The notes below the pieces were generated by a model. It was not told the origin of the DNA, made no database searches, and saw nothing but the letters and a program-made list of their open reading frames with translations. From IMG/VR virus record IMGVR_UViG_3300017527_001322, positions 1 to 64,000 of that record: DNA of 64,000 bases. One strand, written 5' to 3'. Both the position numbers and the translations under genes were made by a program. Shown here in pieces: positions 4,324-59,908 of the stretch (position 1 is the stretch's first letter; each line of letters opens with the position of its first letter). This DNA comes from a virus.

Positions 4324-4347
4324 AGGGGGAGTGAAGGGGGAGTGGTC

Positions 4348-5295
4348 ATGGACCTGAAAGATGCAATCCAGAAGTACATTGGTTTCCTGGCGGCCATCCA
4401 GAAGTCCATGGCCACCATCAACAACTACGACAGTGCCTTCAGGCAATTCGTAGGTTTCACGGGCAATATGCCCGTTAGTGAGCTAGGTCCCCGGCACGCC
4501 AAGAGCTTCATGGTCGAGCTGGGGACTCGTGGTCTGGCACCATCCACCGTCAAGGCCAGGATGGCTGCAATCACTGGGTTCTACGAGTACGTCGTTGATA
4601 CCTGGGGACCCCTCATCGACGAAGAGGGACGCCATACCTACATGACCAATGACCACATCCAGGCCATGAGACGCTGGCTCAAGAACAACAAGCCGAAACC
4701 CAAGAAGCGGGTACCCAGGGTGCCCAACGAGGCCCATGTCCAGACTGTCCGCCAGTACGCCCATCAGAGGGCAGCGGACAGGCCCGGTCCGTTCTCTTCC
4801 CGCAACGTGGCCATCCTTGAGATGCTGCTCTGCACCGGCTGCCGCCGCTCTGAGGTAGCGGCCCTGAAGTGGGACGACGTGGACCAGGTCAACCGGGTGG
4901 CCATTGTCAGGGGCAAGGGTGACAAAGAGCGGGTGGTGCCCCTCAGCAGGCAGGCCATGGACACCATGGAGCGCTACGCCAGGGAGTGGGCACCCAAGAA
5001 CGATGGAGCTGTCTTCCAGCGTCACAACAGCCTGGGTAAGCGGCCTGCTGGGCAAATGAGCCCTGAGTCAGTCGGCAACATCCTGGACAGGCTCTGTCTG
5101 GGTGCCGGAGTGCCAGCCATCACGGCACACCAGTACCGGCACCGAGCTGGCCAGATTATAGTCCAGGGAGCTGGGCTGGAGATGGCCAAAGAAATCATGG
5201 GCCACGAGAAAATCGAGACCACCATGGTCTACACTGATATGCAGTCCCTGGCGGTACAAGCGGCACACAGGCTGCAAGAGGAGGGTAAGCTGTAA
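4348..5295 (+). CDS. int: tyrosine recombinase / integrase
   Basis: The 315-residue protein has an N-terminal SAM-like core-binding domain (about residues 1-90) and a C-terminal catalytic domain with the full set of active-site residues: Arg166 in TGCRRSE, Lys190 in RGKGDKE, His261 and Arg264 in HQYRHR, His286 in GHEK, and nucleophile Tyr295 in MVYTDM. It would carry out site-specific integration and, with a directionality factor, excision. ATG 4348 lies 7 bp after AAGGGGG and is preferred over GTG 4342. The gene sits in the middle of the early block with no recognisable tRNA or att core beside it. The next start overlaps its stop. Confidence 0.93.
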   Translation: MDLKDAIQKYIGFLAAIQKSMATINNYDSAFRQFVGFTGNMPVSELGPRHAKSFMVELGTRGLAPSTVKARMAAITGFYEYVVDTWGPLIDEEGRHTYMTNDHIQAMRRWLKNNKPKPKKRVPRVPNEAHVQTVRQYAHQRAADRPGPFSSRNVAILEMLLCTGCRRSEVAALKWDDVDQVNRVAIVRGKGDKERVVPLSRQAMDTMERYAREWAPKNDGAVFQRHNSLGKRPAGQMSPESVGNILDRLCLGAGVPAITAHQYRHRAGQIIVQGAGLEMAKEIMGHEKIETTMVYTDMQSLAVQAAHRLQEEGKL

Positions 5296-6247: not shown

Positions 6248-6281
6248 GGCCCCACCCTGGTCAGGGGTGGGGCCGTTTTTT
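6248..6281 (+). terminator. intrinsic terminator of the early block
   Basis: GGCCCCACCC (6248-6257), 7-base loop, GGGTGGGGCC (6265-6274), then G and six T. A 10-bp GC-rich stem with a clear U-tract; it ends rightward transcription after the integrase block. Confidence 0.9.
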
Positions 6282-6322
6282 GCGTTAAAGACGGGGACGT
6301 ACTAGTTCTGGCTGCTTGTACT

Positions 6323-6395
6323 TCATTCCTGTAGGATTTGAACCCACTGCCATCAGTTTACGATACTGTTGCTCTGCCAATTGAGCTAAGGTTTG
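6323..6395 (-). tRNA. tRNA-Thr(CGU)-like gene, acceptor stem imperfect
   Basis: Read on the minus strand the 73 nt fold as a cloverleaf: U8-A9, D-stem GCTC/GAGC with GG in the loop, anticodon arm ACAGT-ATCGTAA-ACTGA with anticodon CGT, variable loop TGGCA, T-arm GTGGG-TTCAAAT-CCTAC. The acceptor (CAAACCT with AGGAATG) has two A-A mismatches, so it may be a decaying or specialised tRNA. CCA is not encoded. A promoter with extended -10 precedes it. Confidence 0.6.
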
Positions 6396-6433
6396 TAAGC
6401 ATCCACGGTTAGGGTACGCCCCCACCGTCAGTC

Positions 6434-6462
6434 ATTGTACCACAGCCTTATGACAAAAGCAA
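6434..6462 (-). promoter_or_regulatory. promoter P2 for the tRNA-like gene
   Basis: On the minus strand TTGCTT (6462-6457), 17 bp, TGG-TACAAT (-10 at 6439-6434). The -35 is weak but the extended -10 matches the other phage promoters. It lies 39 bp upstream of the tRNA-like gene. Confidence 0.55.
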
Positions 6463-8971: not shown

Positions 8972-9000
8972 TTGACATTCGTTTCAGGATATGGTACAAT
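8972..9000 (+). promoter_or_regulatory. promoter P5, predicted leaderless transcript
   Basis: TTGACA (8972-8977), 17 bp, TGG-TACAAT (8995-9000). The ATG at 9007 begins six bases after the -10, where transcription itself should start, and no Shine-Dalgarno fits in that space. Confidence 0.85.
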
Positions 9001-9006
9001 GATGGC

Positions 9007-9306
9007 ATGGACAACACCACACTGACAGACAGGGAAGAGGAAGTCTACATCGCACTGGCCACACTCGGGGCGCCCGAAAGCACCGGTGCCCTGGCCGAAA
9101 CCATTGGATGCGGTAACGCTACGGTGTCTCGAGCAATCAACTCCCTCCTGGAGAAGGGCGCAATTTCTGCTGAGAGGGATGGCCGGGGCATCCTGGTCCA
9201 CACAATCGAGACCGCTCACCCGGCGGACGTGATTGTGATGACCAAGAACAGCCGGCTCAGAGAGTGGTATCTGAGTGGCGAGGATGAACTGGAGGAGGAC
9301 GACTGA
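9007..9306 (+). CDS. winged-helix transcriptional regulator (99 aa)
   Basis: Residues 8-65 form a MarR/IclR-like winged helix: TDREEEVYIALATLG, then STGALAETIGCGNATVSRAI, then LLEKGAISAERDGRG as wing. The tail is acidic. Being the first gene after P5, leaderless and next to operator-like DNA, it is the best candidate for the lysis-lysogeny or early-operon regulator. An ATG at 9002 is in another frame. The next gene starts on its stop. Confidence 0.8.
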   Translation: MDNTTLTDREEEVYIALATLGAPESTGALAETIGCGNATVSRAINSLLEKGAISAERDGRGILVHTIETAHPADVIVMTKNSRLREWYLSGEDELEEDD

Positions 9307-10007
9307 TGAAGGCGACACAGACAGCTCTCGACGGAATTGGTACGACCAAGACAGTGAGTACGGCACGCTGCTCTAGTTGTGGCAGAACGCTCACCAACCC
9401 GGTGTCAATCGACGCTGGCATGGGGCCGGTGTGCAGGGGCAAGTCGGGCGCTGGGGTTGGGGTCGTTGCCGACGAAGATGGCATCGAGGATGAGTACCTA
9501 TCTGGCTACCCGCCAAGCAGGGATGGCTACATCTGGAAGAGGGAAAGAGGCAAGGTGCTGACCAACGTCCCGCACCACGTGGTTAGCCACTCCCCCACCG
9601 GTTACGAGTTTGGGCATGGTGGCTCAGGCCCTGCCGACCTGGCGCTGAACATCCTCCAGGACTACATGCTGAACAACGACTACGTCGGCCCACGCACAGA
9701 ATGCCGCAGCGGCTGGTGCTTTGCAGCAGCCTGGGCGCTGCATCACTACTTCAAATTCGAGTTCATTGGACCAACCGGGGGTGACGAAGGCGGGGTGGGC
9801 CTGGAAGAGATTCACACCTTTCTTCTGAAGACACAGGCCATGGGTGTGGTAAGCCCAAGCTGCATGGCCATGGCCACAGGCCTGGCCGACCACGCCGACT
9901 TCGACCCCGACCGGGACGCAGCCCACTATGCCAAGTGGCTGGCCGCCCTCAGTGTAAACAGGGGTTTCCAGCAAACCGTCAAGAAATCTGGCATTCTCGA
10001 CACATGA
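9306..10007 (+). CDS. DUF6011/DUF6166-like protein (233 aa)
   Basis: The N-terminal zinc-finger segment (Cys22, Cys25, Cys43 in RCSSCGRTL...GMGPVC) matches the pattern I know as DUF6011, and HSPTGYEFGHGGSGPADLALNIL around residue 98 matches DUF6166. Both are of unknown function and common in phages and mobile elements. Starts at the one-base overlap with the regulator gene; ends with ATGA into the next gene. Confidence 0.75.
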   Translation: MKATQTALDGIGTTKTVSTARCSSCGRTLTNPVSIDAGMGPVCRGKSGAGVGVVADEDGIEDEYLSGYPPSRDGYIWKRERGKVLTNVPHHVVSHSPTGYEFGHGGSGPADLALNILQDYMLNNDYVGPRTECRSGWCFAAAWALHHYFKFEFIGPTGGDEGGVGLEEIHTFLLKTQAMGVVSPSCMAMATGLADHADFDPDRDAAHYAKWLAALSVNRGFQQTVKKSGILDT

Positions 10008-11497
10008 CCAATACCGCAATAATCCCGCAGCAACCCGCAGCCCTGGAGGCAAGGGGCCGCACGATGTCCGACCTGGTCGCCGCCCTGCAGCATGACCCGC
10101 AGGTCACCAGGATTGACACCGTGCGTCTTGCAGAGGACTTCATCATCGAGCTGGGCCTGGCCTCCGAGTCGGGCTCACTCCCAGAACGTGAGATTGCGGA
10201 GACCGTTGGGGACTACATATCCCGGGTGTCGAAGTCCGAAGAGACCGCAGTTGAGAGGGCCATGCTCCGAGGATTGTACTCGACGAGGAGCCTGAACAAG
10301 GCACTGAGCAAGGCGCTACAGCAGAGGTTGTACAAGTTGGCCCTATCCGGTGCATGGTCTGAATCGGACGGCTTCAACTACATCCGGGACCAGGTGATTG
10401 ACGTGATAAGGGAAGAGCAGGGGATGGGCTACGACAACGCTGCGCGTTGGGCTGATGCCCTGCAGGTCATCATCTGGTTGTACACCGTGGGCAATCGGGA
10501 CAGGTACGGACTCACTCAAACACCAGCCCTTGCAGAGGAGTTTATCCACCTGTACTTCACCCGCCTGGCCCGAATTGCCTCACGGGTTTGGAAGCTCATC
10601 ATCAGGGCCACCCAGAACACCGAGCTGCCCCAGATTTCCTGGGCACAGCTCATCAGGATGGCCAAGAGCCCAGACTTCAATCCCCAGAACCCCGGTGATA
10701 CGAGGCCGGCAGCCGAGCTGTACCGGGCCATCGCCAGGATACACGACGCCCTGGGCATGGTGCTCAATCCCAAGTACAGCACCGCCGACATCGAGGCTGG
10801 GGCAAGGGCTGCGCTGCCGCCCATCAACCCCATCGAGTGGCCAGAGGATATTGAGCTCGACCCAGCGCAGAAGGCGCTGCTAAAGCGTGCTGTGGGCGCC
10901 GGCAAAATCATCTTCCCTGAAGAGAAGCCAGCCCTGGAAGACAGCTACGCTGTCCAGTACAAGTTGCTCCAATTGGGGGTATGCCCTGGCTGTGGCGGCC
11001 ACCTGAAAGCCCAGATACCGGAGGGTGACTGGTACTGCATTCACTGCCAGGATGTCATAGTGGCTCCGGCAACATGGGCCGACTACTGGGAGCGTAGGTA
11101 CCAGACCACCATGGGCACAATGAGCAAATGGGAGGTCTCGACCAGGCCACAGATGGAGGCCTGGAACCCAGAGATTGTAGAGGTGGACCACCGCTTCAAG
11201 GTCTACATCTTTAACACCGTAGAGAAGGCGTACAGAGAGGAGCCCGAGGTGGACGGCGAGATATGGCAAGACACATCCGGTGAGAAGTCATTGCACGACA
11301 AGCTAGTGGAGGGTATGGCCACATACGAGGAAAAGCACGGGCTGGCACCCCGGTACATCTACGTGAACAGGAATGAGTGGGACCAAGCCAAGAAATTGGA
11401 CATCGAGAATGTGACCATCCAGCCCTCCAAGACGGTCAGCTACAGATACCAATACCACCTTTACTACGAAGAACAGGAGGCAGGAAGTGGAGACTAA
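10004..11497 (+). CDS. large unknown protein with zinc ribbon (497 aa)
   Basis: Not recognised. The first about 200 residues are strongly helical and resemble a helical-repeat scaffold; a CPGCGG...CIHC zinc ribbon (Cys327, 330, 345, 348) follows, then a mixed alpha/beta C-terminal domain rich in Tyr. It sits between a regulator and the replication genes in one operon. A replication, transcription or RNA-related role is possible but unproven. ATG 10004 overlaps the previous TGA. Confidence 0.75.
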   Translation: MTNTAIIPQQPAALEARGRTMSDLVAALQHDPQVTRIDTVRLAEDFIIELGLASESGSLPEREIAETVGDYISRVSKSEETAVERAMLRGLYSTRSLNKALSKALQQRLYKLALSGAWSESDGFNYIRDQVIDVIREEQGMGYDNAARWADALQVIIWLYTVGNRDRYGLTQTPALAEEFIHLYFTRLARIASRVWKLIIRATQNTELPQISWAQLIRMAKSPDFNPQNPGDTRPAAELYRAIARIHDALGMVLNPKYSTADIEAGARAALPPINPIEWPEDIELDPAQKALLKRAVGAGKIIFPEEKPALEDSYAVQYKLLQLGVCPGCGGHLKAQIPEGDWYCIHCQDVIVAPATWADYWERRYQTTMGTMSKWEVSTRPQMEAWNPEIVEVDHRFKVYIFNTVEKAYREEPEVDGEIWQDTSGEKSLHDKLVEGMATYEEKHGLAPRYIYVNRNEWDQAKKLDIENVTIQPSKTVSYRYQYHLYYEEQEAGSGD

Positions 11498-11813
11498 GGG
11501 GAGGGAGTACAGAGTCGTCCTGAAGGACGGCACATCTGCACCAGTGCAGGTCGTGCGCTGGTGGCCAAAGAGGGCGGAGTGGCCAGATGGTTTCTGCCCC
11601 ATTCCGTACCACCTGGTGGAAGGCGCAATCCGGCGCAAGCGGCGGAACATGACCGTGGCCATGGTCCAGATGCCCGAGGGGTTGGTGTTTGGCTACACCG
11701 AGTGCGGCACCCCAATTAACGGAGTGGTGTCCAGGCGCATGGGTAAGAACATCGCTCTTGGCCGGCTGCGAAAGCAGGTCAACGAAATGGGCTACGGGAT
11801 GGTGAGGGCTTAA
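11487..11813 (+). CDS. hypothetical basic protein (108 aa)
   Basis: GTG start overlapping the previous gene by 11 bp with GGAGGCAGGAA upstream. Beta-rich, basic (RRKRRN at about 48-53), ending with a helix. No recognised family. Confidence 0.65.
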   Translation: METKGREYRVVLKDGTSAPVQVVRWWPKRAEWPDGFCPIPYHLVEGAIRRKRRNMTVAMVQMPEGLVFGYTECGTPINGVVSRRMGKNIALGRLRKQVNEMGYGMVRA

Positions 11814-12247
11814 TGGCAAGCACCTGGGGCGGCACTAGCTGGACGACTCCGGTAACCACCACCACTGGCGACACAATTTTCTACGAAAACGAGACAGTCT
11901 CCTGGCGCACCTGCCAGCTCTGTGGTGCAACATTTGACGTAAAAGTTGGGCACATGTGTATGAGTAGGCAATCATCCACGAAGTTCAAGCTGACGTGGAT
12001 AAAAGACGAAGAGGAGGAAGGCACTATGAACGACAAACTGAGGAAGTTTTTCACGAAGCTAGTTGCACGCAAGAGGCTGACCGAGGAAGCCCTTGAAGAG
12101 GTGGAGGCCATCATGGCATACCCGGACTGGGAGAAGCGCTTCCTGCTGTACCTCCTGGTCACCGAGAAGGATGTTCTCCTGGAGACCCTGGGCTACGAGC
12201 GTTCAGACGAAGATCGCCCGAACGTCATTGTTGCTCAAGTTTCCTAA
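11813..12247 (+). CDS. hypothetical protein with zinc knuckle (144 aa)
   Basis: N-terminal part carries Cys34-x2-Cys37 and His47-x-Cys49, a likely zinc knuckle. The C-terminal 73 residues form an independent helical domain that could be made separately: ATG at 12026 has GAGGAGGAAGG upstream. The gene begins on the last base of the previous one. Confidence 0.65.
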   Translation: MASTWGGTSWTTPVTTTTGDTIFYENETVSWRTCQLCGATFDVKVGHMCMSRQSSTKFKLTWIKDEEEEGTMNDKLRKFFTKLVARKRLTEEALEEVEAIMAYPDWEKRFLLYLLVTEKDVLLETLGYERSDEDRPNVIVAQVS

Positions 12248-12356
12248 CACAGGCACCGATGTGCTGGTGCCTGGCGGCTTCGGCTTTCACAGAAAAGGAC
12301 CGTACTACCACTTTGTGCGCAGCGTTCTCAAGGACCTCGGACATGAAGTAAAGTAG
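12228..12356 (+). CDS. possible 42-aa protein (TTG start)
   Basis: After the previous gene ends, a shifted frame encodes VLVPGGFGFHRKGPYY and a C-terminal amphipathic helix (FVRSVLKDLGHEV), which looks like real protein. The only starts are tandem TTG codons at 12228/12231 that would need translational coupling. It may also be the remnant of a longer gene. Confidence 0.35.
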   Translation: MLLKFPNTGTDVLVPGGFGFHRKGPYYHFVRSVLKDLGHEVK

Positions 12357-12361
12357 AATAA

Positions 12362-12450
12362 CCCTGGGTAGGCATTGCCGATGTTGGTAGTATAATCAAG
12401 CCCGTTGAAGAAACGTGGCGAGAACGGTGGTTCGATTCCATCCCCAGGGC
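12362..12450 (+). other. tRNA-like element
   Basis: CCCTGGG (12362-12368) pairs perfectly with CCCAGGG (12443-12449), and the T-arm GGTGG-TTCGATT-CCATC directly precedes the 3' strand, as in a tRNA. The 57-nt middle is as long as in type II tRNAs but I cannot fold a normal D-arm or an anticodon loop with U33; instead GCCCGTT-GAAGA-AACGTGGC makes one long stem. It could be a decayed tRNA, a tRNA mimic or an attachment-site relic. The gap 12357-12476 holds nothing else. Confidence 0.4.
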
Positions 12451-12476
12451 CAAGCATCAAATGAAAGGGAGAAGAG

Positions 12477-12746
12477 ATGGGCGTAGGCAAGGGAGACCCG
12501 GTAGAGAGAAAGCTGGCTGGTGACAGGGAACTTGTTGAGGCGCTAGAGGCGGCAGGGGTCAATGAATGGTTGTTCTTCGAGGCCCAGGGTACCGAGTCCA
12601 CAGGCACCAGGTCCAGATGCTATGGTGCAGGCAAGGTCATTGGCTACATGGTGGAGACAACCATCCGACATCACCGGGACGACCCTGACATCCCCGAGGG
12701 AACTTTCAGGATGTACTTCCGCAAAATAGGGAAGCGCACATCATGA
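12477..12746 (+). CDS. hypothetical protein (89 aa)
   Basis: Unknown small protein with GAAAGGGAGAAGAG upstream of its ATG. Helical start, Gly-rich middle, beta-strand end. ATGA overlap with the next gene. Confidence 0.65.
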   Translation: MGVGKGDPVERKLAGDRELVEALEAAGVNEWLFFEAQGTESTGTRSRCYGAGKVIGYMVETTIRHHRDDPDIPEGTFRMYFRKIGKRTS

Positions 12747-13075
12747 CCAAAACACACGATGTCCTGATAGATTTCGACCCCCTTCGCATTGCCCTGCCTG
12801 GCGCCGGGCCGTTCGTGGGCACGGTCAAGATAGTCCTGCCCGAAGTCCACGCAAAGCTAGTGGACCTCAGCATGGGCATGCACCTATTGCAGGGGGCGCA
12901 CATCGGGTCAGACGGTCGGCTGTGGTCCCTCGACATCAAGGACATCCAGGAGCCCGGGATGGAAGCTGGCGACCTGCTGAAATTCATCGCCAGTGCCGAG
13001 GGGGAGCTCCGAGAGATGCACAGGCTCATCCAAGAAGAGATGGACAAGCGGTATCTCCTGGACGACCCCCCATAA
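12743..13075 (+). CDS. hypothetical protein (110 aa)
   Basis: N-terminal part looks like a beta sandwich with alternating hydrophobics; C-terminal 45 residues are helical and acidic. Last gene before promoter P6. No recognised family. Confidence 0.65.
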   Translation: MTKTHDVLIDFDPLRIALPGAGPFVGTVKIVLPEVHAKLVDLSMGMHLLQGAHIGSDGRLWSLDIKDIQEPGMEAGDLLKFIASAEGELREMHRLIQEEMDKRYLLDDPP

Positions 13076-13078
13076 CGC

Positions 13079-13107
13079 TTGACATCCGGTGCCGCCTATG
13101 GTACAAT
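13079..13107 (+). promoter_or_regulatory. promoter P6 for the replication operon
   Basis: TTGACA (13079-13084), 17 bp, TGG-TACAAT (13102-13107). The start of the spacer (13081-13095) matches 12 of 15 bases of the palindrome at 2314-2328, so a repressor could sit directly on this promoter. Confidence 0.85.
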
Positions 13108-13294
13108 GAGGGTAATAGGATACTGGGACTTGTGGAGTGGCACCCACAGCAAGTGTAGTCCCGCCCGAAGCAACAGTGTGATGAGTGCGTTTCAACGACT
13201 CCTCTCGGGGGTGCGGTCCTTTGTAATCTGAGGGCCACGCCAAAGGCCCAATCTGTTGTCGGGCAGGGCCGTGTCCCCGAGAGGAGTTGTTTTC
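13108..13294 (+). promoter_or_regulatory. structured 187-nt leader that buries the ribosome-binding site
   Basis: Bases 13194-13210 pair with 13275-13291 over 17 bp (one G-U), and the second arm contains the GAGAGGAG Shine-Dalgarno of the gene at 13295. The 64-nt loop has alternative helices (GGGCC/GGCCC and CCTTTG/CAAAGG). The first about 85 nt after the promoter are also outside any gene. The layout fits translational control by a riboswitch-like, thermosensor-like, or protein- or antisense-triggered switch. Confidence 0.7.
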
Positions 13295-14278
13295 ATGATT
13301 ACTATCTTTGACGGCAGAAAGATTAGCCTGGACGGCACACAGGATGAAATCTACGCCACGGTTTCTGTGGCATTGCGCGACAGGCTGCACGAGTTCAATA
13401 CAGGGAAAAACCTCAACCCCTTTGCCATCTTCATGAAGATAGCCCTTCACATGGACCGAGATGGCTGGGCCTTCCCGGGCAGGGAGAGTATGAAGAAAAG
13501 CACCGGCCTGTCGAGTGACGCAGCCATATCTTCAGCCCTGAAGCACCTGGGCAAGATGCGCGTCGACGGACACCGAGTCCTGGCCATCTACCGGACTAAG
13601 AACAGTGAGGGGCAGTGGTCACAAACTTTGTACAGGGTATTCCCCGACGCTTTTCAGGATGGCCTGGCCAGTATGCCTGCCAGGTTTAGGTCACTTCAAT
13701 TGATTCCGTTTTATGGAGCCACCACAGACAACCCACCCCCAGATAATCTAGGGGTGGATAATCCACCCGTGGAAGATGTGGGTAATAAGGAAATCCATGA
13801 AGAGGAAGGACCACCATCTGAAAGTTCTCTGCCTCCGGCACTTTTCCCGAACTTTCCAAGCGTCCGTGAGGCCGTAGATGCGGAGTCAAACAAGAACACA
13901 AAAGCGTCTATACTTATCGGTTTGTATATGCAACTCTTCCCAGAGAAGAAGGAGCCCACCGTACCCTACGTTCACACAATGGCCGGGCGCACCGGTGGGT
14001 ACACGCTCCTCGCCAGGTATCTCTGGGATGTGAACAAGCTGCAAGTGGACGGGGATGATGTGATGGCCTACATCACCAACACTCACAAGGGAGGTGGCAA
14101 TGGACGACCAAATCACCAAGGAAAAAGCGAAGCGGCTGAAGCAGCTAGACGAGCTCGTGCAGAAGATGAGCGTAAAAAGCTCGACACAGAGTTCCCAGAC
14201 GGGCTCGTCGTCCCCAGCGTCAGCCCAGCCGAAGTGGCAGAACTGGCAAGAGCACGGCGTGCAGGTGCTAGAGCCTGA
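13295..14278 (+). CDS. replication-initiator-like winged-helix protein (327 aa)
   Basis: Residues 40-110 resemble the winged helix of phage initiator or DnaD/O-like proteins (FAIFMKIALHMDRDGWAFPGRESMKKSTGLSS, then KHLGKMRVDGHRVL). A Pro-rich linker follows, then a helical C-terminal domain with a basic, Ala-rich tail. It directly precedes a DnaC-like loader, the usual partner arrangement. ATG 13295 lies 8 bp after the Shine-Dalgarno locked in the leader stem. Its last 179 bp overlap the next gene in another frame. Confidence 0.75.
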   Translation: MITIFDGRKISLDGTQDEIYATVSVALRDRLHEFNTGKNLNPFAIFMKIALHMDRDGWAFPGRESMKKSTGLSSDAAISSALKHLGKMRVDGHRVLAIYRTKNSEGQWSQTLYRVFPDAFQDGLASMPARFRSLQLIPFYGATTDNPPPDNLGVDNPPVEDVGNKEIHEEEGPPSESSLPPALFPNFPSVREAVDAESNKNTKASILIGLYMQLFPEKKEPTVPYVHTMAGRTGGYTLLARYLWDVNKLQVDGDDVMAYITNTHKGGGNGRPNHQGKSEAAEAARRARAEDERKKLDTEFPDGLVVPSVSPAEVAELARARRAGARA

Positions 14279-14984
14279 GTGCTCTATCTGCCAGGACCGC
14301 CAGTATGTCCGGGAGGATTTACCGCCCGACCATCCCAGGTTCGGGAAGTTGACTCCCTGCTCCTGCCAGTTTGACGTGGTGTTCGAGCGGTTGAAGAAGC
14401 TAAGCCGGCTATCCGAGGAGATGCAGTACTGGTACCTGGACCAGTTCATCGACCGTGAGGGCAAGCTGGGCAAGGTGGTCACTGGTTTGAGTATGCTCCT
14501 GGAGGAACGTGCTGGTTGGGCTACGCTTACAGGACCTTTTGGCACAGGCAAGACCTACCTTCTCGCAGCCTTCGCAAATGAAGCCAGGCTGGACCAACGC
14601 AGGACGGTTTACACCACCACCGCTGACCTCCTGGCAGACCTCCGGGCCACCTTCGACCCGAAGTCCAAGGAATCTACAAGCGAGCTCTTCCAGCAGGTGC
14701 TGGATGCCGAGGTCCTCTGTATCGACGAGCTAGAGAAATTCAGGGCCACCGACTGGGCCATGGAACAGTTTTTCCGCCTGGTAGAACACAGGTACCGGCT
14801 GCAAGGTGAGGCCATCACCCTCTGGGCTACGAACAAGAGGCTCACCCGGGATGGCACCGAGGTCGTCATGGAGGTCGGCGACTGGGAGGGGTACCTGGAG
14901 TCACGGATGCGTGATGGGCGGTTTGAGATATACGACCAATTCTGGGGATTGTCGGACCTGAGGCCCAAGCTGAGAAAAGGATAA
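14100..14984 (+). CDS. dnaC: DnaC-like AAA+ helicase loader (294 aa)
   Basis: AAA+ ATPase of the DnaC/IstB type: Walker A GPFGTGKT (145-152), Walker B VLCIDE (205-210), sensor 1 ATN (243-245) and an ESRMRDGR segment as likely Arg finger. A zinc-binding segment (Cys61/64 and Cys87/89) precedes it as in other phage loaders. It would load the host replicative helicase onto origin DNA with the upstream initiator. ATG 14100 has GGGAGG 6 bp upstream; the GTG at 14094 is less likely. No helicase, primase or polymerase is encoded in the window. Confidence 0.88.
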   Translation: MDDQITKEKAKRLKQLDELVQKMSVKSSTQSSQTGSSSPASAQPKWQNWQEHGVQVLEPECSICQDRQYVREDLPPDHPRFGKLTPCSCQFDVVFERLKKLSRLSEEMQYWYLDQFIDREGKLGKVVTGLSMLLEERAGWATLTGPFGTGKTYLLAAFANEARLDQRRTVYTTTADLLADLRATFDPKSKESTSELFQQVLDAEVLCIDELEKFRATDWAMEQFFRLVEHRYRLQGEAITLWATNKRLTRDGTEVVMEVGDWEGYLESRMRDGRFEIYDQFWGLSDLRPKLRKG

Positions 14985-15011
14985 GATGCACAACACAGGA
15001 GCGGTAAAATC

Positions 15012-16121
15012 ATGGAAAGAGAGTTGGCACTCGGGGCAGGAATACTTGTCCTGGTCCCCCGCATCACTCCCAAGCAATGGGAAAAAGCGACAATCCGCAG
15101 GGTCAGCCCGATGCGCAAGAGTATCTACTACACCACCGAGGTCGGCAGAAAGAGTCACACCAGGGTCAGTGCCTACCGAAGTACGTGGGTATGGCCAGGA
15201 GACCCTGACCCCTACACCCCAGCCGAGACTGAGCATGGCGGGGGTCCTCGCACAGACTACACGCTGGGCAGGTACAACTATCCGATTGACAAGCGAAATT
15301 CTCACGAGCTGGGCATCGGCATTACTGGCTGCGCCTTTCGTGGTAGTCTCATGTGTCATGTATGCTATCTTTCCTGGGACATACCGGTCGAATGTAGCTG
15401 GAACTGCTGGCAATGCGAGCACAAGGGTACCTGTCCCTGCAGTATGCCTGGCCAGGAACTTATCATCGGCTGGAAGATGGCAGAAGAAATCGCCGAGGGG
15501 GTGGTAGGATGGAAGGCCAGGGGTATTCTTATGGAAGCTGCCGACCAGGGAGTCCAGTGGGACAAAAAGGGTCCGTTCGGTTGCATGAAATGCCTGGACA
15601 CCGGCCTGGTCAACGGAGAATGGTGCGAATGTATCCGCAGCACACTAGTGAGAGGAGTGTTCACCATGTCGTCAGGAATTAACGGAGAAGTACACGAGGG
15701 ATTGCTGGAGGAGTTCAACAGATGCCGAGCGGAGATGCTGAGAATCCGAGGAGAGGAGTTTCCAATATCAGAGACCCAGGTAACCTGGAAGGCGGACGGT
15801 GGGCACATTGGAACTTTGGTGGACCACTTCAACAGGCGCATTTTGCTGAACGTCCCCATACGCATTGTCGACCAGTGGGACGGAGACAAAGGAGCGCGAA
15901 TGCACGCCTTGTCCGTGCTCTGTGGCAGGCCGTTAAAGAGCACCAAGGAGATGTATTACTTTGAGCTCCATGGCTGGCATGCCTGGGCCGTGAACCATGA
16001 CGAGGAAACAGACACCTGGTCTCTACACGAAGGGCCGCAAGAGGTCATGAAGGCACTCATCTGGGACCCGTCATTCAGAGCGCTGGCCGAGGCCCAGCCG
16101 GCCATGGAACCGGTGGCGTGA
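15012..16121 (+). CDS. Cys-rich multi-zinc protein of unknown function (369 aa)
   Basis: Three Cys clusters stand out: CHVCYLSW and CSWNCWQCEHKGTCPC around residues 115-143, and CMKCLDTG...CEC around 193-210. The first resembles a treble-clef or ferredoxin-like knuckle; the last resembles a DnaJ-type zinc finger. The N-terminal 70 residues look like an SH3-like barrel and the C-terminal part is alpha/beta. Not recognised as a whole. Shine-Dalgarno AGGAG lies upstream of ATG 15012. Confidence 0.75.
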   Translation: MERELALGAGILVLVPRITPKQWEKATIRRVSPMRKSIYYTTEVGRKSHTRVSAYRSTWVWPGDPDPYTPAETEHGGGPRTDYTLGRYNYPIDKRNSHELGIGITGCAFRGSLMCHVCYLSWDIPVECSWNCWQCEHKGTCPCSMPGQELIIGWKMAEEIAEGVVGWKARGILMEAADQGVQWDKKGPFGCMKCLDTGLVNGEWCECIRSTLVRGVFTMSSGINGEVHEGLLEEFNRCRAEMLRIRGEEFPISETQVTWKADGGHIGTLVDHFNRRILLNVPIRIVDQWDGDKGARMHALSVLCGRPLKSTKEMYYFELHGWHAWAVNHDEETDTWSLHEGPQEVMKALIWDPSFRALAEAQPAMEPVA

Positions 16122-16122
16122 T

Positions 16123-16392
16123 ATGTGGAAACTAAAGAAAGCGTCAGTGGTGCTCAGGCCTAGTGGTGGCTTCCGAACCATATCAGGAGAGTTTGAGGCC
16201 ACAGAAACAACCAGTGACGGGAAAACGACCTCAATCAAAACCCATACAGCCTCCGTCCTAATCAGTGCAAACGAGAGTCATGAACGAGCATGGAATATAC
16301 TGGAGAGACTGTTGCTAAAAACAGTCCTGGACCACACACCGACGCCTGGCCATCAGGATGATGAGAAACACTACGAGAAGGAGGCAGAATGA
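16123..16392 (+). CDS. hypothetical protein (89 aa)
   Basis: Probable small beta sheet (alternating Thr/Val/Ser strands) with a C-terminal helix. One base after the previous stop; four-base overlap with the next gene. No family recognised. Confidence 0.65.
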   Translation: MWKLKKASVVLRPSGGFRTISGEFEATETTSDGKTTSIKTHTASVLISANESHERAWNILERLLLKTVLDHTPTPGHQDDEKHYEKEAE

Positions 16393-17063
16393 GAACAAAG
16401 TACTACCTGGAAGAAACAAGGGTTCCGAGTGAGCAGTTCGACGCTGTGTTTGGTGACGGGTACGAGCCCAAGAAGGATGTCGGTGATGGCACAGACGACG
16501 ATTTCTCAGACATCCTAAAAGCGCAGATTGATGAGATACACCAAAAGGACTCTCTGTCCATACGCTGCTGGCTGCAAATGCTTGACGGCTCGGTCCCGGA
16601 CAGTGTGTACAAATACGAGTTCGTTGTCTACAATCACGGGGATTACTGGAGATCAAAATTCAATATGGTGAGTGGCCGGGCCGAGGCAGAGATAATCATG
16701 GGGTATGACGGCTGGGACTACACCGGGCAAAGGGAGGGCACGGCAACTTGCTTTATTGGACGCACAGACGGCACGCTGCATTCGGAGCAAGTGCGGGGCG
16801 TAGGCTGGCTCTCGCATCCAGATTATGGTAGGTACTGCAGTGCCAACCTGGTCTTCGTCATAGAACCAGCCGTCGAGCCAGAACCGGAGCCTGAGCCAGA
16901 ACCGGAGCCTGAGCCAGAACCGGAGCCTGAGCCGGACGACCTGAAACAGGTCCTCATGCTTGCTGCCTGGAACGCGACATGGCTGGCAACCTATCTGAAC
17001 AAGGCAATTGAGATACTGGATGAGTCAGGAGGTGGTGTAAATGAAGAAGGGCGACCTGGTTGA
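16389..17063 (+). CDS. hypothetical protein with Glu-Pro repeat hinge (224 aa)
   Basis: A globular N-terminal domain (about 1-160, beta-rich, many aromatic residues) is joined by ten or more consecutive Glu-Pro dipeptides to a C-terminal helix. Glu-Pro runs form rigid extended spacers, as in TonB-like and some surface proteins. No signal peptide. Possible role in bridging two partners; inference only. Confidence 0.7.
   Translation: MRTKYYLEETRVPSEQFDAVFGDGYEPKKDVGDGTDDDFSDILKAQIDEIHQKDSLSIRCWLQMLDGSVPDSVYKYEFVVYNHGDYWRSKFNMVSGRAEAEIIMGYDGWDYTGQREGTATCFIGRTDGTLHSEQVRGVGWLSHPDYGRYCSANLVFVIEPAVEPEPEPEPEPEPEPEPEPEPDDLKQVLMLAAWNATWLATYLNKAIEILDESGGGVNEEGRPG
16875..16928 (+). repeat. 18-bp tandem repeat encoding Glu-Pro
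   Basis: Three exact, head-to-tail copies of GAGCCAGAACCGGAGCCT inside the preceding gene. Copy number is likely to vary between relatives by slippage. Confidence 0.85.
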
Positions 17064-17175
17064 ATGTGGGAGCTGCGAGGTACAGTGGGTCTACAACGGG
17101 CGAGATATGTGCCCAATCTGCTACCAGCGGGACGTGAGGCCGGCCAATGAAGCAAAGACAGAAGTCACAAGCTGA
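17041..17175 (+). CDS. tiny zinc-ribbon protein (44 aa)
   Basis: Cys9-x2-Cys12 and Cys24-x2-Cys27 form a compact zinc ribbon. ATG 17041 has GGAGGTGG upstream and overlaps the end of the Glu-Pro gene; the stop lies inside the HNH gene. Small zinc ribbons beside nucleases are common in phages; the function is unknown. Confidence 0.6.
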   Translation: MKKGDLVECGSCEVQWVYNGRDMCPICYQRDVRPANEAKTEVTS

Positions 17176-17650
17176 GCTAGACATCGAGAAGCGGCAACGC
17201 TTCGCGATTCGCAGAGCTCGCTTCAATGTCAAGTGGGAACTGGCCTACCGGGGCGCTCGCTGCCCGGGGTGCTGGAAGCCGGTGTATCCCAGCGACGGAG
17301 AGTTCCACCACGCCCTGTTCCGAGAGCGGGACGCCATCACCCACGAGCAGAAACTGTTGCTGTATGATGTCAGGAATGGCCTGGTCGTGCATCACGCCTG
17401 CCACCTCGGGGAGAACAAGCCCGGGTTTCGCACTAACAGCGCCATCATCGTCATTCACCAGGCCGGTGGGCCAGAGAACATACGGCAATACTGCGCAGGC
17501 TTAGCCGAGCACTTTGAGGTGCTGACTATACCCAAGCTCTGGGTTGAACTACTGGACGACTGGTACAGCTTGGGCGGACCGTGCCCTACTTGCCTCGGGG
17601 ACAGGGTCCGCGACGGAACATGCCTGAGCTGCCTGTGGAGGATGGTGTGA
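17147..17650 (+). CDS. HNH endonuclease (167 aa)
   Basis: The HNH core is intact: Cys39-x2-Cys42, FHHAL with His54/His55, Asn77 in VRNGLVV, and HHACH with His82/83, Cys85 and His86. A second zinc knuckle (CPTC...CLSC, Cys146-162) follows. It would nick or cut DNA; it may be a homing endonuclease or a replication or packaging nuclease. Position upstream of the Gp3-like gene favours DNA metabolism. Confidence 0.85.
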   Translation: MKQRQKSQAELDIEKRQRFAIRRARFNVKWELAYRGARCPGCWKPVYPSDGEFHHALFRERDAITHEQKLLLYDVRNGLVVHHACHLGENKPGFRTNSAIIVIHQAGGPENIRQYCAGLAEHFEVLTIPKLWVELLDDWYSLGGPCPTCLGDRVRDGTCLSCLWRMV

Positions 17651-19023
17651 GGGACTATGAGCGAGAGCGCGACTGGATGCTCGTGCGTGGCAGGTGGCAC
17701 AAGCACAGAGAGCTGGAAAAATGGTGGGAGTGCCGGTGTGGGAGCAGCCTTGTGCTCAAGTTCCGGGACGGGTGGGTCACAGAATGCGCTGCCGACCTAA
17801 GCCATAGTCCAGACACACACTTCATCACCCAGACGGTGGCGCACGAAGAGAAAGCCAAGATGATGGAGTACCAGGGATGGTACGACCAAGGGAAGGAGAA
17901 CAGAATGGCATTTGTAAAGGACAGGCACACAGAAGACGGCGCACTCCGGGGTCAGCCCAGGGTCCGCCGAGCTGGGCGCATAGCGCTTGGCGAGAAGCGT
18001 CAGGGTGGCGGGGCAAGGTCGTTGCCCTACTTCAGGTTTGTTCCCTTTGAGGAGACTGATGCCGGGCTAGCAATGATGCAGCAGGTACAGACAGTCCTTG
18101 AAGAATACGGCATAGACTCAGAGCAGCCGAAGGCGCTGCCGGCCTACCTGCCAGCAAACGCCGTAGAGCTGTTTGCATCCAGTTCTTACAAGCTGGCCGG
18201 CAATGAGGGCCGTCCCCGGTGTGTTGGTGATGGCCAGAACATCAACTTCAAGCTGGGACCCCAGAACAAGCTGGAGGTCTCCCACGATGAGGTCTCTGCC
18301 TTCACGGTGAACATCGACGGCACGGAGTTCAAGAAGGGTGAACAGATACCATGCCCGGGCCGCGCCCAGGAGGGCAGGTGGTCACACTGTGAGAAATGTG
18401 GTCTCAAGCTGTCAATCGACCTGCAAATTGCCCACCTGCCGTACATCTGGCAACTGACGACCGGCGACCAGGCATTCTACGACCAGTTCTTCACAGTGCT
18501 AGCCATGTGCCAGGACTACGTGCGCCAGGGAGATGCCCGGTTCTTGACCGAGATTCCATTGCTGCTGCGCAGGGAGCCAGGCATGAAGGCCAGACCGGAA
18601 GAGAGACAGGGAGAAACATACCTGAAGTGGCAGGAGATGCCCACGCTATCAATCGAGGTCCATCCCATCTGGACGGCCACCGTCGCAGCAAGCCGTGTTG
18701 CTAGCCTTACTCCAGGCGGGGCACTGAAGGCTTTGCCCGAGGGAGAAACCGGGGACCAGGAACCCGAGGAGAAGATTGTCGGCACGGGTTCACCACTGGA
18801 CAAATTAGACTGGGCCGAAGGTGTCAACAAAGACCCGGTGGACAAAGAGTTCTGGCCAGAGTTCTACAAGCACGTGATAGCGCAGATGGGCTACCCGGAC
18901 GAAAAGTCAATCAACCAGGTGCTGCAGGAGGAATTCAAGACAGGGAAGAATACCCAGAGCCAGCCGGCTGGGGTGTTGTGGTCAACACTGCAGAGACGTA
19001 TCACCCCTCCGCCAGAGGGGTAG
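17647..19023 (+). CDS. Gp3-like recombination-directionality-family protein (458 aa)
   Basis: The order of features matches the Gp3-like (phiC31 RDF) family as I know it: RRAGRIALGEK near residue 106, PYFRFVP, then LPAYLPANAVELFASSSYK, a GDG loop, an IPCPG...HCEKCG zinc site and a strand pair with LPYIWQL. Members bind DNA or single-strand intermediates, and a few control serine integrases; here the integrase is a tyrosine recombinase, so a replication-associated role is more likely. GTG 17647 with GGAGG 5 bp upstream makes a GTGA overlap; ATG 17620 is an alternative. The C-terminal 100 residues are disordered and acidic. Confidence 0.6.
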   Translation: MRDYERERDWMLVRGRWHKHRELEKWWECRCGSSLVLKFRDGWVTECAADLSHSPDTHFITQTVAHEEKAKMMEYQGWYDQGKENRMAFVKDRHTEDGALRGQPRVRRAGRIALGEKRQGGGARSLPYFRFVPFEETDAGLAMMQQVQTVLEEYGIDSEQPKALPAYLPANAVELFASSSYKLAGNEGRPRCVGDGQNINFKLGPQNKLEVSHDEVSAFTVNIDGTEFKKGEQIPCPGRAQEGRWSHCEKCGLKLSIDLQIAHLPYIWQLTTGDQAFYDQFFTVLAMCQDYVRQGDARFLTEIPLLLRREPGMKARPEERQGETYLKWQEMPTLSIEVHPIWTATVAASRVASLTPGGALKALPEGETGDQEPEEKIVGTGSPLDKLDWAEGVNKDPVDKEFWPEFYKHVIAQMGYPDEKSINQVLQEEFKTGKNTQSQPAGVLWSTLQRRITPPPEG

Positions 19024-29014: not shown

Positions 29015-29902
29015 CTATGAAAACGCCATCGCCACCCAGATTGCGCTGGGTAGCATAATCCTTGTCTCACGTGCCCTGACCATGGTCCAAGCAGCCAGGA
29101 CCCAGACCAACGCGAGCCATGATGTCTGCGCCAGAGGTGTGCCCCAGGTGGAAAGCGCCACGATAACGATGGCCACTGTCCACAGCAACGACATCATCAT
29201 GCCTGTGTCTCGTCTTTTCATCATCTGCTTCAGGTCACTGGCGTTGTAGACACCGGACGCAAGAATAGACACAATTCCAATCCAATAAAGCAAGAGTGGC
29301 GGCCTGTTTGCCTGGCCGCGCCATGCCCTAAGACGTATGACGCGACCTCCCCAGCGCTCATAGTATAGACCCGCTTTCCCCTGCCTTATATGCACAAGCC
29401 CCCAGACGACGACACCTGCCACTGTAGCCATAACGAGGGTTGGGCCGCCTACGAACAGAGCAATTACTGGAGCCAGCAGCACGGTTTCCTTGCTGAATGC
29501 CCACAGAGTTGCCCCAACCAAAGCCATGACCGGCTCACCGCTGAGAATCATAGCCACAGCGGCCACCTCTACATAGCAGTCCCAGTAGTCGAACTCAAAG
29601 GTGGCCGCCATGGCAATGGCGAAAACCAACAGGCCTGCACTGCTCACCAGTGGCTCTACAGCCAGAATGGCAAGCAGTATAAGCAAGGCTTTGATGGCAA
29701 GATACACCTGCAGCCGCACACGCCTCGGGATGGCCCACAGTAACCATGGAACAAGCACCCTGTAGCGCATCGGTGCGCTGGATGTGCGGGTCAGAACCCC
29801 CTGTATAGCACCGTAGCCATTGAAGGTTGTCCCGATGTTGCCCTGGCTGGCCCTGAATTCCAGAAGAGCCAGGACTGAGACCAGGAGGATTATACTCATC
29901 AT
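29015..29902 (-). CDS. polytopic membrane protein, GT-C glycosyltransferase-like (295 aa)
   Basis: Seven or more hydrophobic helices. The N-terminal MRYRVLVPWLLW resembles the RYRVLVPW segment of bacterial GT-C-type or DUF2029-like membrane glycosyltransferases, and EFDYWDCYVEV...FSKET recalls their acidic and (R/K)ET loops. It starts on the stop of the chaperone frameshift frame and ends just before the tape measure, an unusual place for a membrane enzyme. Its role may be to modify host surface sugars or lipid carriers, or to block superinfection; substrate unknown. It lacks the large C-terminal domain of full GT-C enzymes. Confidence 0.6.
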   Translation of the reverse strand: MMSIILLVSVLALLEFRASQGNIGTTFNGYGAIQGVLTRTSSAPMRYRVLVPWLLWAIPRRVRLQVYLAIKALLILLAILAVEPLVSSAGLLVFAIAMAATFEFDYWDCYVEVAAVAMILSGEPVMALVGATLWAFSKETVLLAPVIALFVGGPTLVMATVAGVVVWGLVHIRQGKAGLYYERWGGRVIRLRAWRGQANRPPLLLYWIGIVSILASGVYNASDLKQMMKRRDTGMMMSLLWTVAIVIVALSTWGTPLAQTSWLALVWVLAAWTMVRARETRIMLPSAIWVAMAFS

Positions 29903-30123
29903 CTCCCCCTGGCCCCAGCTCTCTGGCGCTCTAGTATCTCGCGCTTTTCACGCACGAAACCCTCCGCGCTTAGGAACTGCAGATGTTTAAGGACTGTGCT
30001 GAAGGGGACCTCCCGGAACTGCACCGGTGTGCAGTGGTATACATCCCGGCAGAACACGAATTCTATGTACTCGGTGGGCGGGGCACCGTGTCCCCAAAGG
30101 TACTCGATTACCCGCCCTCTGAG
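29899..30123 (-). CDS. tail assembly chaperone, frameshift extension (T part)
   Basis: Read by a -1 shift at the slippery heptamer 30129-30123, this frame adds 74 residues (RVIEYLWGHGAPPTEYIEFVFC...) to the first 80 of the upstream chaperone, making a 154-residue fusion. It has no good start of its own and ends in a basic helix. This is the gpG-gpT arrangement of lambda-like phages; the fusion coats the tape measure while the tube is built. The stop overlaps the start of the membrane protein gene. Confidence 0.85.
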   Translation of the reverse strand, partial: LRGRVIEYLWGHGAPPTEYIEFVFCRDVYHCTPVQFREVPFSTVLKHLQFLSAEGFVREKREILERQRAGARGR

Positions 30124-39859: not shown

Positions 39860-39967
39860 CTAAATCCTTGCTAGGCGAGGCCGGGAACGAAGCCCGGCCC
39901 CACCTTTTGGCGGAGCCCCCGCCATGATTGGACCTAAGCAGTATTCACATTGTTTAGGTGCAATCAT
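39860..39967 (-). CDS. possible 35-aa zinc-knuckle protein inside a hairpin
   Basis: ATG at 39967 has AAAGGAG eight bases upstream and opens 35 codons beginning MIAPKQCEYCLG, with a CxxC pair, then Gly/Arg/Pro-rich text. The coding DNA is the same 19-bp inverted repeat described for 39912-39979, so the frame may be a coincidence of the hairpin. Confidence 0.35.
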   Translation of the reverse strand: MIAPKQCEYCLGPIMAGAPPKGGAGLRSRPRLARI

Positions 39968-39979
39968 GGCGGGGGCTCC
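39912..39979 (-). terminator. very strong 19-bp hairpin after the capsid gene
   Basis: 39912-39930 and 39961-39979 are perfect inverted repeats (19 bp, GC-rich), with six more pairs inside (ACCTAA/TTAGGT). A second stem GGCCGGG-CTTCGT-TCCCGGCC lies just downstream on the minus strand. No U-tract follows, so RNase protection of the capsid mRNA is more likely than termination. Confidence 0.65.
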
Positions 39980-44755: not shown

Positions 44756-46169
44756 CATTATCCTCCCGTGCAGGAGCGCCCATAGTGCCAAGCTCCAGGG
44801 CCATCTTCTGCATCTCCATCATGTTTTGGTACTCTGGAGAATCTTTCATCTTCTCAATCTGCTGAGGCGTGTACCCCATTTCCTCCCAGAGTGTTGGTGT
44901 GGGGATTCCCAAGGCCTCCCTCTTGATTGCCGCCGTTTCCGCAGCAGCTTTTTCATTCCTTGTCTCTGGGTCAGCCCACACAGTTGAGATGGTGACATCC
45001 GTGTCCAGTTCCCCCGTCTCACCCGTCTCCGTTTCGCCAAAGATATTCCAAAGCCTCCGTGCAACAGCCATCACATCTTCCCAGGCATTCCCAATGGTAA
45101 CCTGCCGGTTCTCAACCTTACCAATTAGACCACTTTCTTCCTGCTTCAGTGTGCCCTCTGCAGCCCGGTACGAACTGACCTGGAACCGCGAGAGTGGGGT
45201 CCTGGACACACGGGCAATCTCAATGACAAAGCTGTCCATGAATTCCTTGAGATTGGAGAGGTCTTCACCAGGAAAGTAACCAATAGCCACAGCGTCCTCC
45301 CCCTCGGGTGGATGGTTCGAGTGAATCCAGACCCCGGGCGCAACCTCGACACCACTAGGGTCATCCCCAAGCATGTAGTAAATGCGGAATGCTGTGGTGT
45401 CGGCTGCGGCAATGAGGTCGATGACAGCCTTGTTCAAGGCGTCCTGCAAGGGGGTGATGTCCTTCAGCTCCGACTTGCCCCAGTTGTAGCCAGTGTCCTT
45501 GTTCCTGAAGTGAATGACCGGAATGCCAATAGGGGTGCCGTCCATGTCTCGCCAATCAGCCAACCAGGGCTGACCATCTTCAATGTAGGGGAGCCATCCC
45601 CCCTGGCCTCTGTAATAGCGCTCCATCCGGTCTGGGTAGTACAAGTTCAGGCGCCTTTGGCCCCAGTCATTCTCCCAGCGCTTGGAGGCAAAGCGAACAA
45701 CACTGCGCTGGCCACGTGAGTAGTGACACTTCACGCCCTCCTCACCATCGAAGGCCAGCTCGTAATCGAATCTGGGGATGCCCTTGACTGGGTCCCAGGA
45801 GATGATGACATATGCGTCACCGTCCCTGCAGGCCGCAGTGTGGACAACGCCCTGCTGGTGGTCCATCCTATTTTCGGCCCACCAATCCCAGAACACCTTG
45901 GGCTGCTCAAGCTCGTCGTCGGCTGCGAACCCGGTGACCTGCATCTTCTCGGCAACAGCATCCACGACGATAGGGCAGTAGTTTGACCTGAAAACGTCTG
46001 CCCCAGGTCCCAAATTCAGGTACTGGCGTTGACGTTTTGTAATCTGTGTCTGGTGCTCGCCGTCATAATACTCTCGGAACTTCTCGTAGCCGTCCTCCCT
46101 GGAGCCAGTATCATTGTCGATGATTCCCAAGGCCCAGGGGGTGCCCATAACCACTGCTTCCTCAGACAT
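44709..46169 (-). CDS. portal protein, SPP1 gp6-like (486 aa)
   Basis: Matches phage_portal/gp6-like order: REYYDGEHQTQITKRQRQYL at the N-terminus, RSNYCPIVVDAVAEKMQVTGF, VIHFRNKD-x-GYNWGKSELKDI (clip/stem), the long VIEIARVSRTPLSRFQ helix and a disordered acidic tail. Twelve copies would form the DNA entry channel. Eight-bp overlap with terminase. Confidence 0.93.
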   Translation of the reverse strand: MSEEAVVMGTPWALGIIDNDTGSREDGYEKFREYYDGEHQTQITKRQRQYLNLGPGADVFRSNYCPIVVDAVAEKMQVTGFAADDELEQPKVFWDWWAENRMDHQQGVVHTAACRDGDAYVIISWDPVKGIPRFDYELAFDGEEGVKCHYSRGQRSVVRFASKRWENDWGQRRLNLYYPDRMERYYRGQGGWLPYIEDGQPWLADWRDMDGTPIGIPVIHFRNKDTGYNWGKSELKDITPLQDALNKAVIDLIAAADTTAFRIYYMLGDDPSGVEVAPGVWIHSNHPPEGEDAVAIGYFPGEDLSNLKEFMDSFVIEIARVSRTPLSRFQVSSYRAAEGTLKQEESGLIGKVENRQVTIGNAWEDVMAVARRLWNIFGETETGETGELDTDVTISTVWADPETRNEKAAAETAAIKREALGIPTPTLWEEMGYTPQQIEKMKDSPEYQNMMEMQKMALELGTMGAPAREDNDGSDGRREETVSSSS

Positions 46170-58255: not shown

Positions 58256-58807
58256 TTATCGCCCTGTTTTACTGCCCAGGGCTGGCAGCCCTTCCTGCTG
58301 CTTGATACGCATCTGGCCCTCGCTGAACCAGCGTCGAAGACCGTGGGAGAAACTCTGAATCCGGTTCTCCTCCATCTGCTCTCTGGTCGCCCAGCCGACC
58401 ACCCTGCCCTGCTTGTTCTCCATGTCGATGAACATCAGAATCAGGATGTCGGCAACGATGTGTTTGCGCCACTGGCCCTTTTCGCGCCTCGGGTCATCCG
58501 GTTCAAGGTACTCCATCAGGTAGATACCGCCGTACTCGTCTTCATAGGTCGTCGCCTTTATGTCGTAGCCGACTTCTCCAATCCTGAAGTCTACCCCACC
58601 GTCGCCCTCCGGTCGCATCGCCTTGTCCATCGGCACCCCAGTGAGCTCTTCAAAGACCTGCTCCCCCAGAAACCCAACGAAGTTGGTATCGTGCCGCGAG
58701 TAGCGCCTGGTGGACTTGTAGTTCCGCTTGACCTCAGTCCAGAGGCGGCCCCTCTCGCTATGCTCGTCCAAGAAGGGAGCAAGGTCAACCCAGTGCCCGT
58801 CACCCAC
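58256..58807 (-). CDS. PD-(D/E)XK nuclease-like protein (183 aa)
   Basis: GEQVFEELTG (Glu49), GGVDFRIG (Asp73) and YDIKAT (Asp82-Ile-Lys84) form the E...D...(D/E)xK pattern of restriction-endonuclease-like nucleases; the final helix and VVGWATREQM fit the rest of the fold. GTG 58807 with CGGAGGGG upstream is the likely start. It may process phage DNA or degrade host DNA. Confidence 0.75.
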   Translation of the reverse strand: MGDGHWVDLAPFLDEHSERGRLWTEVKRNYKSTRRYSRHDTNFVGFLGEQVFEELTGVPMDKAMRPEGDGGVDFRIGEVGYDIKATTYEDEYGGIYLMEYLEPDDPRREKGQWRKHIVADILILMFIDMENKQGRVVGWATREQMEENRIQSFSHGLRRWFSEGQMRIKQQEGLPALGSKTGR

Positions 58808-59696: not shown

Positions 59697-59908
59697 GCCC
59701 CCTCGTGGTCAATGAATCTGGTCGTGGTCCAGCAGGCATCTCCTACGTACCAACTGAATTCCTCTTCCCACTTGGCATGCACCAGCCAGCGAGTCTCCCT
59801 GAGGGTGAATTCACCAACGTGCACTAAGATAGACCTTGGCAGCCAGAGAAAACCAGAACGGATTCTTTTGTCGCCGTTCTTCCAGACCCTATTTGTCGTC
59901 TTCAACAA
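59693..59908 (-). CDS. hypothetical protein (71 aa)
   Basis: Basic, Trp-rich small beta protein (WKNGDKRIRSGFLWLPRSILVHVGEF). Four-base overlap with the nucleotidyltransferase gene. Not recognised. Confidence 0.65.
   Translation of the reverse strand: MLKTTNRVWKNGDKRIRSGFLWLPRSILVHVGEFTLRETRWLVHAKWEEEFSWYVGDACWTTTRFIDHEGA

Follow-up and report, generated by a model that had tools for sequence, protein, structure and literature searches.

Upstream of the replication-initiator gene of an uncultured temperate tailed phage, the ribosome-binding site lies within the longest predicted RNA helix of the phage DNA analysed. We asked whether this leader is, as an earlier note on the sequence had proposed, a new RNA switch controlling phage replication, at which level it would act, and what might open it. 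The window, that is, the whole stretch of DNA analysed, comprises 64.0 of the 65.8 kb of IMG/VR virus record IMGVR_UViG_3300017527_001322 and carries an integrase gene (4342-5295) together with terminase, portal and capsid genes. No close relative of the phage was found in the collections searched.

The initiator leader and its hairpin

The early operon of the phage lies on the + strand and spans 9007 to 19023. Internal to this operon is a sigma-70 promoter (13079-13107, +; TTGACA-17-TACAAT with TG before the -10; predicted start ~13114), which at a score of 17.5 is joint best in the window. A gap of 187 nt separates it from a gene for a replication-initiator-like protein (13295-14278, +) with an N-terminal winged HTH, for which the domain matches are weak (HTH_36 below cut-off, phrog_12720 and phrog_1032). 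The initiator-like gene adjoins that of a DnaC-like AAA+ helicase loader (14100-14984, +). Within the initiator gene, three 15-bp iteron-like repeats at 13727-13771 (GACAACCCACCCCCA, GATAATCTAGGGGTG and GATAATCCACCCGTG) constitute a candidate replication origin comparable to that in lambda O.

The leader promoter is one of a set of near-identical strong promoters in this phage, located at 2343, 8972, 13079 and other positions. It had been described as repressible, a label left without sequence support since no operator dyad was seen; its spacer is also not common to the other promoters of the phage. For the promoter at 8972, the last base of the -10 element is 9000, and a gene for a 99-aa TrmB/MarR-like HTH protein begins with its ATG at 9007 (region 8972-9306), which places the transcript start at or beside the start codon and makes this a likely leaderless gene. 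A divergent strong promoter (8953-8925) lies opposite, and the pair is a possible lysis-lysogeny switch. In the region 6248-6462, a phage tRNA-Thr(CGT) gene (6323-6395, minus strand) has its own promoter (6462-6434), with the same -10 as the early promoters (TGTGGTACAAT). Toward the other end of the window, an RlaP-like RNA-repair nucleotidyltransferase gene (58800-59696) is found near that of a 701-aa VWA-domain protein (61601-63706, phrog_2426), and the region 58800-63706 is possibly an RNA-repair or sensing cassette.

Judging from the promoter position, transcription would produce a structured leader RNA of ~180 nt up to a U-rich tract (13114-13294, +). Its predicted fold has a free energy of -92.7 kcal/mol and a z-score of about -4.5 to -4.6, with none of 200 shuffled sequences folding as well. 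Arms 13194-13210 and 13275-13291, which had been suggested to form a 17-bp stem, pair as claimed through 16 Watson-Crick pairs and G13197-U13288, and the helix is in fact longer, continuing unbroken to 13220/13265. The complete 5′ arm (13194-13220, +) and 3′ arm (13265-13291, +) form 27 unbroken RNA pairs, 5 of them G-U, around a 44-nt loop (13221-13264) that contains a small hairpin (13232-13249); the whole hairpin measures 98 nt. No other helix in the window, whichever the strand, is as long (the next reaches 19), and the longest helices in 60 random 64-kb sequences (first-order Markov, same dinucleotide composition) were 13-18 pairs each. The structure of the stem is thus real. Hairpin free energy is -60.4 kcal/mol in the sense orientation vs. 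-47.3 kcal/mol on the antisense strand, and because the G-U pairs form in sense RNA only and the antisense fold is weaker, the evidence points to RNA rather than DNA as the level at which the stem almost certainly acts. Further long inverted repeats (16-19 bp) cluster at 29418-29919 on the minus strand, in and beside a structural gene.

Two features occupy the 3′ side of the hairpin. The Shine-Dalgarno sequence AGGAG (13282-13286, +, within GAGAGGAG at 13279-13286) lies 8 nt before the ATG at 13295 and is buried in the 3′ arm. It is fully paired in the predicted fold, with a probability of being unpaired of 0.0001 at 37 °C, and freeing it would cost 14.9 kcal/mol, the highest value among 40 gene starts of the phage (the next is 8.3); the proposal that the stem covers the ribosome-binding site is thereby upheld. 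The second feature is the U-rich tract UUGUUUUC (13287-13294, +), which together with the 98-nt hairpin forms a predicted terminator-like element in the initiator leader, beside the start codon. Its terminator score, calculated with the d'Aubenton-Carafa formula, is +5.3.

Recurrence of the leader architecture

Direct relatives of the leader or the initiator were not found in IMG/VR, GTDB genomes or phage records, peptide-based initiator searches included, and queries with the loader alone, the VWA protein or a two-sequence loader profile returned none or one relative. Portal relatives (11 records) have replication genes of other kinds. A degenerate DNA pattern for the Walker B stretch of the loader (D-E-L-E-K-F...T-x-W-A) was specific; two scans with it recovered L006 along with other homologues of the loader, and L008 came from a profile scan. 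The loader-motif search gave 12 distant loci with ~25-35% loader identity, and 10 initiator leaders, that of the window included, could be read.

The same architecture, consisting of a promoter, a 96-99-nt hairpin, an initiator and a loader, is present without alignable sequence in two of these loci, L050 and L055. The L050 hairpin (IMGVR_UViG_3300035144_000007, ~45636-45734, minus strand) has a 28-bp stem and a 43-nt loop and measures 99 nt; that of L055 (IMGVR_UViG_3300005832_000025, ~18526-18621, minus strand) has a 17-bp stem and a 62-nt loop and measures 96 nt. Relative to the start codon, the promoters occupy -216 to -188 in the window (TTGACA-17-TACAAT), -211 to -183 in L050 (TTGACA-17-TACAAT) and -198 to -170 in L055 (TTGACG-17-TAATAT), and the distance from the strong promoter to the hairpin is 52-55 nt in L050 and L055 and 86 nt in the window. 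Fold z-scores of the three leaders are -4.5 (window), -4.4 (L050) and -5.3 (L055). The initiators themselves differ in type, being winged HTH in the window and DnaD-like in L050 and L055. The leader architecture recurs in these two distant phages.

The hairpin is absent from the remaining 7 of the 10 leaders, including those of L052 and L057 despite their long intergenic leaders. L052 has a z-score of -3.3 and a short hairpin, and the other six leaders lie between -1.1 and +1.3. Stems of at least 17 bp occur in 3 of 10 real leaders vs. 2 of 3000 shuffled leaders, and no helix of at least 13 bp was found upstream of the initiator in 9 known phage loci with DnaD- or DnaC-type replication genes. 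When stem (at least 14 bp, loop 25-75), terminator score (> -10) and promoter (score at least 12 within 200 nt) were required jointly, only three loci were recovered in 992 kb of strand, all of them loader-adjacent initiator leaders, a count that is descriptive since the thresholds were set after L050 and L055 had been seen.

We then compared what the three hairpins have in common. Sense-strand terminator scores are +5.3 in the window, -4.3 in L050 and +9.5 in L055, and the corresponding antisense strands score -42.5, -26.4 and -27.7; as the score was designed for short hairpins, these values are support rather than proof. Among 32 control long helices in the window, the median score is -52 and a single helix exceeds 0. 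That helix (39912-39979) is a 19-bp intergenic hairpin separating the major capsid gene from the structural gene that follows, and its terminator-like tail is found on the opposite strand from the operon. The ribosome-binding-site mask is distributed differently. The hairpin stops 31 nt short of the start codon in L050 and 18 nt short of it in L055, and opening the ribosome-binding site is predicted to cost 0.4 kcal/mol in one of the two relatives and 2.5 kcal/mol in the other. With the site accessible in both, the lock appears particular to the window phage and is not a conserved function of the hairpin, whereas the hairpin and U-rich tail are common to all three and look like a transcription attenuator.

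The loop had also been said to offer competing helices. An upstream segment of the window leader (13160-13176, +) could pair with loop positions 13253-13268, as judged from the sequence and from nascent-RNA folds. Such upstream leader-to-loop pairing was equalled in 5 of 300 shuffles for the window and in 8 of 300 and 44 of 300 for the relatives, a nominal significance and weak evidence, and a whole-duplex measure did not exceed shuffles; the proposal of competing helices is not confirmed. Pairing of this kind would be the candidate counterpart of the pre-emptor pairing that excludes the terminator in attenuators of the pT181/pIP501 type. In L050, a stretch of ~33 nt in the upstream leader (about -164 to -131, minus strand) could pair almost completely with the loop and the first part of the 3′ arm. 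The two long folds that result exclude each other, and the nascent RNA is predicted to adopt the alternative one first. A competing helix is plausible in L050 and nominal outside it.

Models for leader function

We lean, at somewhat less than even confidence, toward an attenuator hairpin in the leader, one that additionally covers the ribosome-binding site in this phage, on the model of pT181 repC. Transcription would start at the strong promoter (13079-13107), and once polymerase has arrived at about 13287-13294, the 98-nt hairpin is predicted to form in the RNA, followed by UUGUUUUC. The hairpin may then serve as an inefficient or conditional terminator that releases a short leader RNA of ~180 nt, such that only a fraction of transcripts would enter the initiator-loader operon. 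Because the initiator AGGAG lies in the 3′ arm, a read-through transcript in its ground-state fold is predicted to be translationally silent as well in this phage, and the two layers together would keep the dose of initiator low. Release could come from some factor, or from nascent-RNA kinetics, that delays closure of the hairpin. Against attenuation, stem and loop are far longer than those of typical intrinsic terminators, the L050 score (-4.3) falls slightly under 0, the hairpin is missing from 7 of the 10 leaders, and neither an antisense promoter nor another effector was found.

A purely translational lock, as the earlier note had it, is the less likely reading: polymerase would pass the hairpin, and the stem would keep ribosomes off the mRNA until some factor opened it. 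This reading is favored by the burial of AGGAG (0.0001 unpaired) and by an opening cost above that of every other gene start among the 40. The lock is missing, however, from both hairpin-bearing relatives, it leaves the U-rich tail unexplained, and no opener was found for it. Of the openers that had been proposed, temperature is unlikely, as the calculated probability that AGGAG is unpaired rises from 0.0001 at 37 °C to 0.0013 at 65 °C and only about 0.03 at 85 °C, which speaks against an RNA thermometer. Nor does an antisense RNA find support, since no antisense promoter stands out opposite the leader: the best candidates score 6-8 vs. 15-17 for the phage's own promoters, at a level expected ~1-2 times per kb.

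RNase III is known to process the lambda N and T7 early mRNAs, and a comparable site, at which a long duplex in an early leader is cut and the mRNA is thereby matured, stabilised or activated, is an improbable explanation here. The three leaders offer 27, 28 and 17 (extended) pairs, a suitable duplex length, and the position of such a site would be independent of the ribosome-binding site. RNase III processing would account for the long stem as well as attenuation does. It leaves the U-rich tail of all three leaders unexplained, however, and a cut in mid-stem would still leave AGGAG under a remnant of the 3′ arm duplex in the window.

P4-type immunity relies on a leader RNA that, once processed, pairs with the nascent leader to bring about termination. 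The terminated leader of our phage could likewise be a trans-acting small RNA, either of this kind or an activator like IsrK, with the read-through product as replication mRNA, a reading to which we also assign a low probability. Promoter, hairpin and U-tract make up a complete small-RNA unit in three phages, the upstream leader and the loop are partially complementary, and the terminated and read-through isoforms of the prophage RNA IsrK offer a precedent (PMC4825925). That complementarity is weak, however, and a covariance-model search of Rfam 15 returned nothing relevant for the window, L050 or L055.

Coupling to a leader peptide is more doubtful still. A ribosome on a 16-codon ORF (13181-13231, +), or one arriving from a TTG at 13130, would open the 5′ arm and expose the ribosome-binding site; the ORF does pass through the 5′ arm, and a ribosome held on codons 13187-13217 raises the computed accessibility of AGGAG to ~0.3. 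Its ATG lacks a Shine-Dalgarno sequence, though, an ORF of this kind is likely to arise by chance, no equivalent was seen in L050 or L055, and the stem is computed to be closed again once the ribosome has moved on to the stop codon. Neither the leader-peptide candidate nor translation as the opener is thus supported. Finally, a non-regulatory reading, be it an inverted repeat that arose by chance or an element acting as DNA, is very hard to reconcile with 27 pairs including sense-only G-U, a length far beyond chance and recurrence in relatives, even though the searched collections contain no alignable relatives in which conservation of pairing could be seen.

Comparison with plasmid and prophage leaders

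RNA attenuators that set the level of initiator synthesis are textbook knowledge for plasmids. The closest parallel to the attenuator that we favor is repC of the Staphylococcus plasmid pT181, where AGGAG lies in the 3′ half of the attenuator terminator (Novick et al. 1989, after PMC5435934 and PMC5703833). Both systems have a terminator-like hairpin in the initiator mRNA leader, directly before the start codon and with AGGAG in its 3′ half, so that transcription and translation can be blocked together. They also differ: in pT181 the switch is operated by a cis-encoded antisense RNA together with pre-emptor pairing, and the initiator is a rolling-circle Rep, whereas the phage leader is without an evident antisense promoter and precedes an initiator and a helicase loader, and the phage stem and loop appear much longer. 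Since an antisense promoter was sought and not found, the leader would work like the pT181 attenuator yet stand outside the antisense-driven family.

The leader-peptide-coupled initiator genes of R1 (tap-repA) and ColIb-P9 (repY-repZ) likewise have an initiator ribosome-binding site closed by RNA structure, with a possible upstream ORF in the phage as a counterpart. In our leader, the peptide and its stop position are unconvincing, there is no antisense gene, and the repZ pseudoknot is without an established equivalent. Hairpins in rep leaders also control initiator synthesis by termination in pIP501 repR and by ribosome-binding-site masking in pSK41 rep (PMC5703833); the phage shares the hairpin in the initiator leader, whereas antisense RNAs are demonstrated for these plasmids and none was detected for the phage leader. 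Gifsy-1 IsrK resembles it in having a phage-borne promoter, a short terminated RNA and a translationally inactive read-through isoform (PMC4825925), and differs in the genes concerned and in that the phage leader has no Rfam match. Among the open-access papers searched, none was found to describe such an attenuator for a tailed-phage initiator operon.

Taken together, the proposal of a new RNA switch stands as far as an RNA element with its own promoter before the replication operon, recurring in two relatives, is concerned, and falls short in that the lock is not conserved. Such an element should lower initiator synthesis, and since two distant relatives have a similar hairpin at the same place, phage replication is probably held back by it in earnest, whether as a switch or as a constant brake. 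More tentatively, the three leaders may belong to a class of conditional leader RNAs (attenuators) that has not been described before. Members would be recognised not by sequence but by an architecture in which a strong promoter, a hairpin of 96-99 nt and a U-tract precede the initiator and loader genes. The class would control the replication operons of a group of uncultured temperate phages with a DELEKF-type helicase loader and would be switched by something other than cis-antisense RNA. As the architecture recurs without sequence similarity, RNA searches that rely on sequence would overlook leaders of this kind. If it works as proposed, the element would be a compact natural part uniting transcription and translation control, and would equip temperate phages, in addition to their repressor, with a second check on replication that resembles the copy-number brakes of plasmids.
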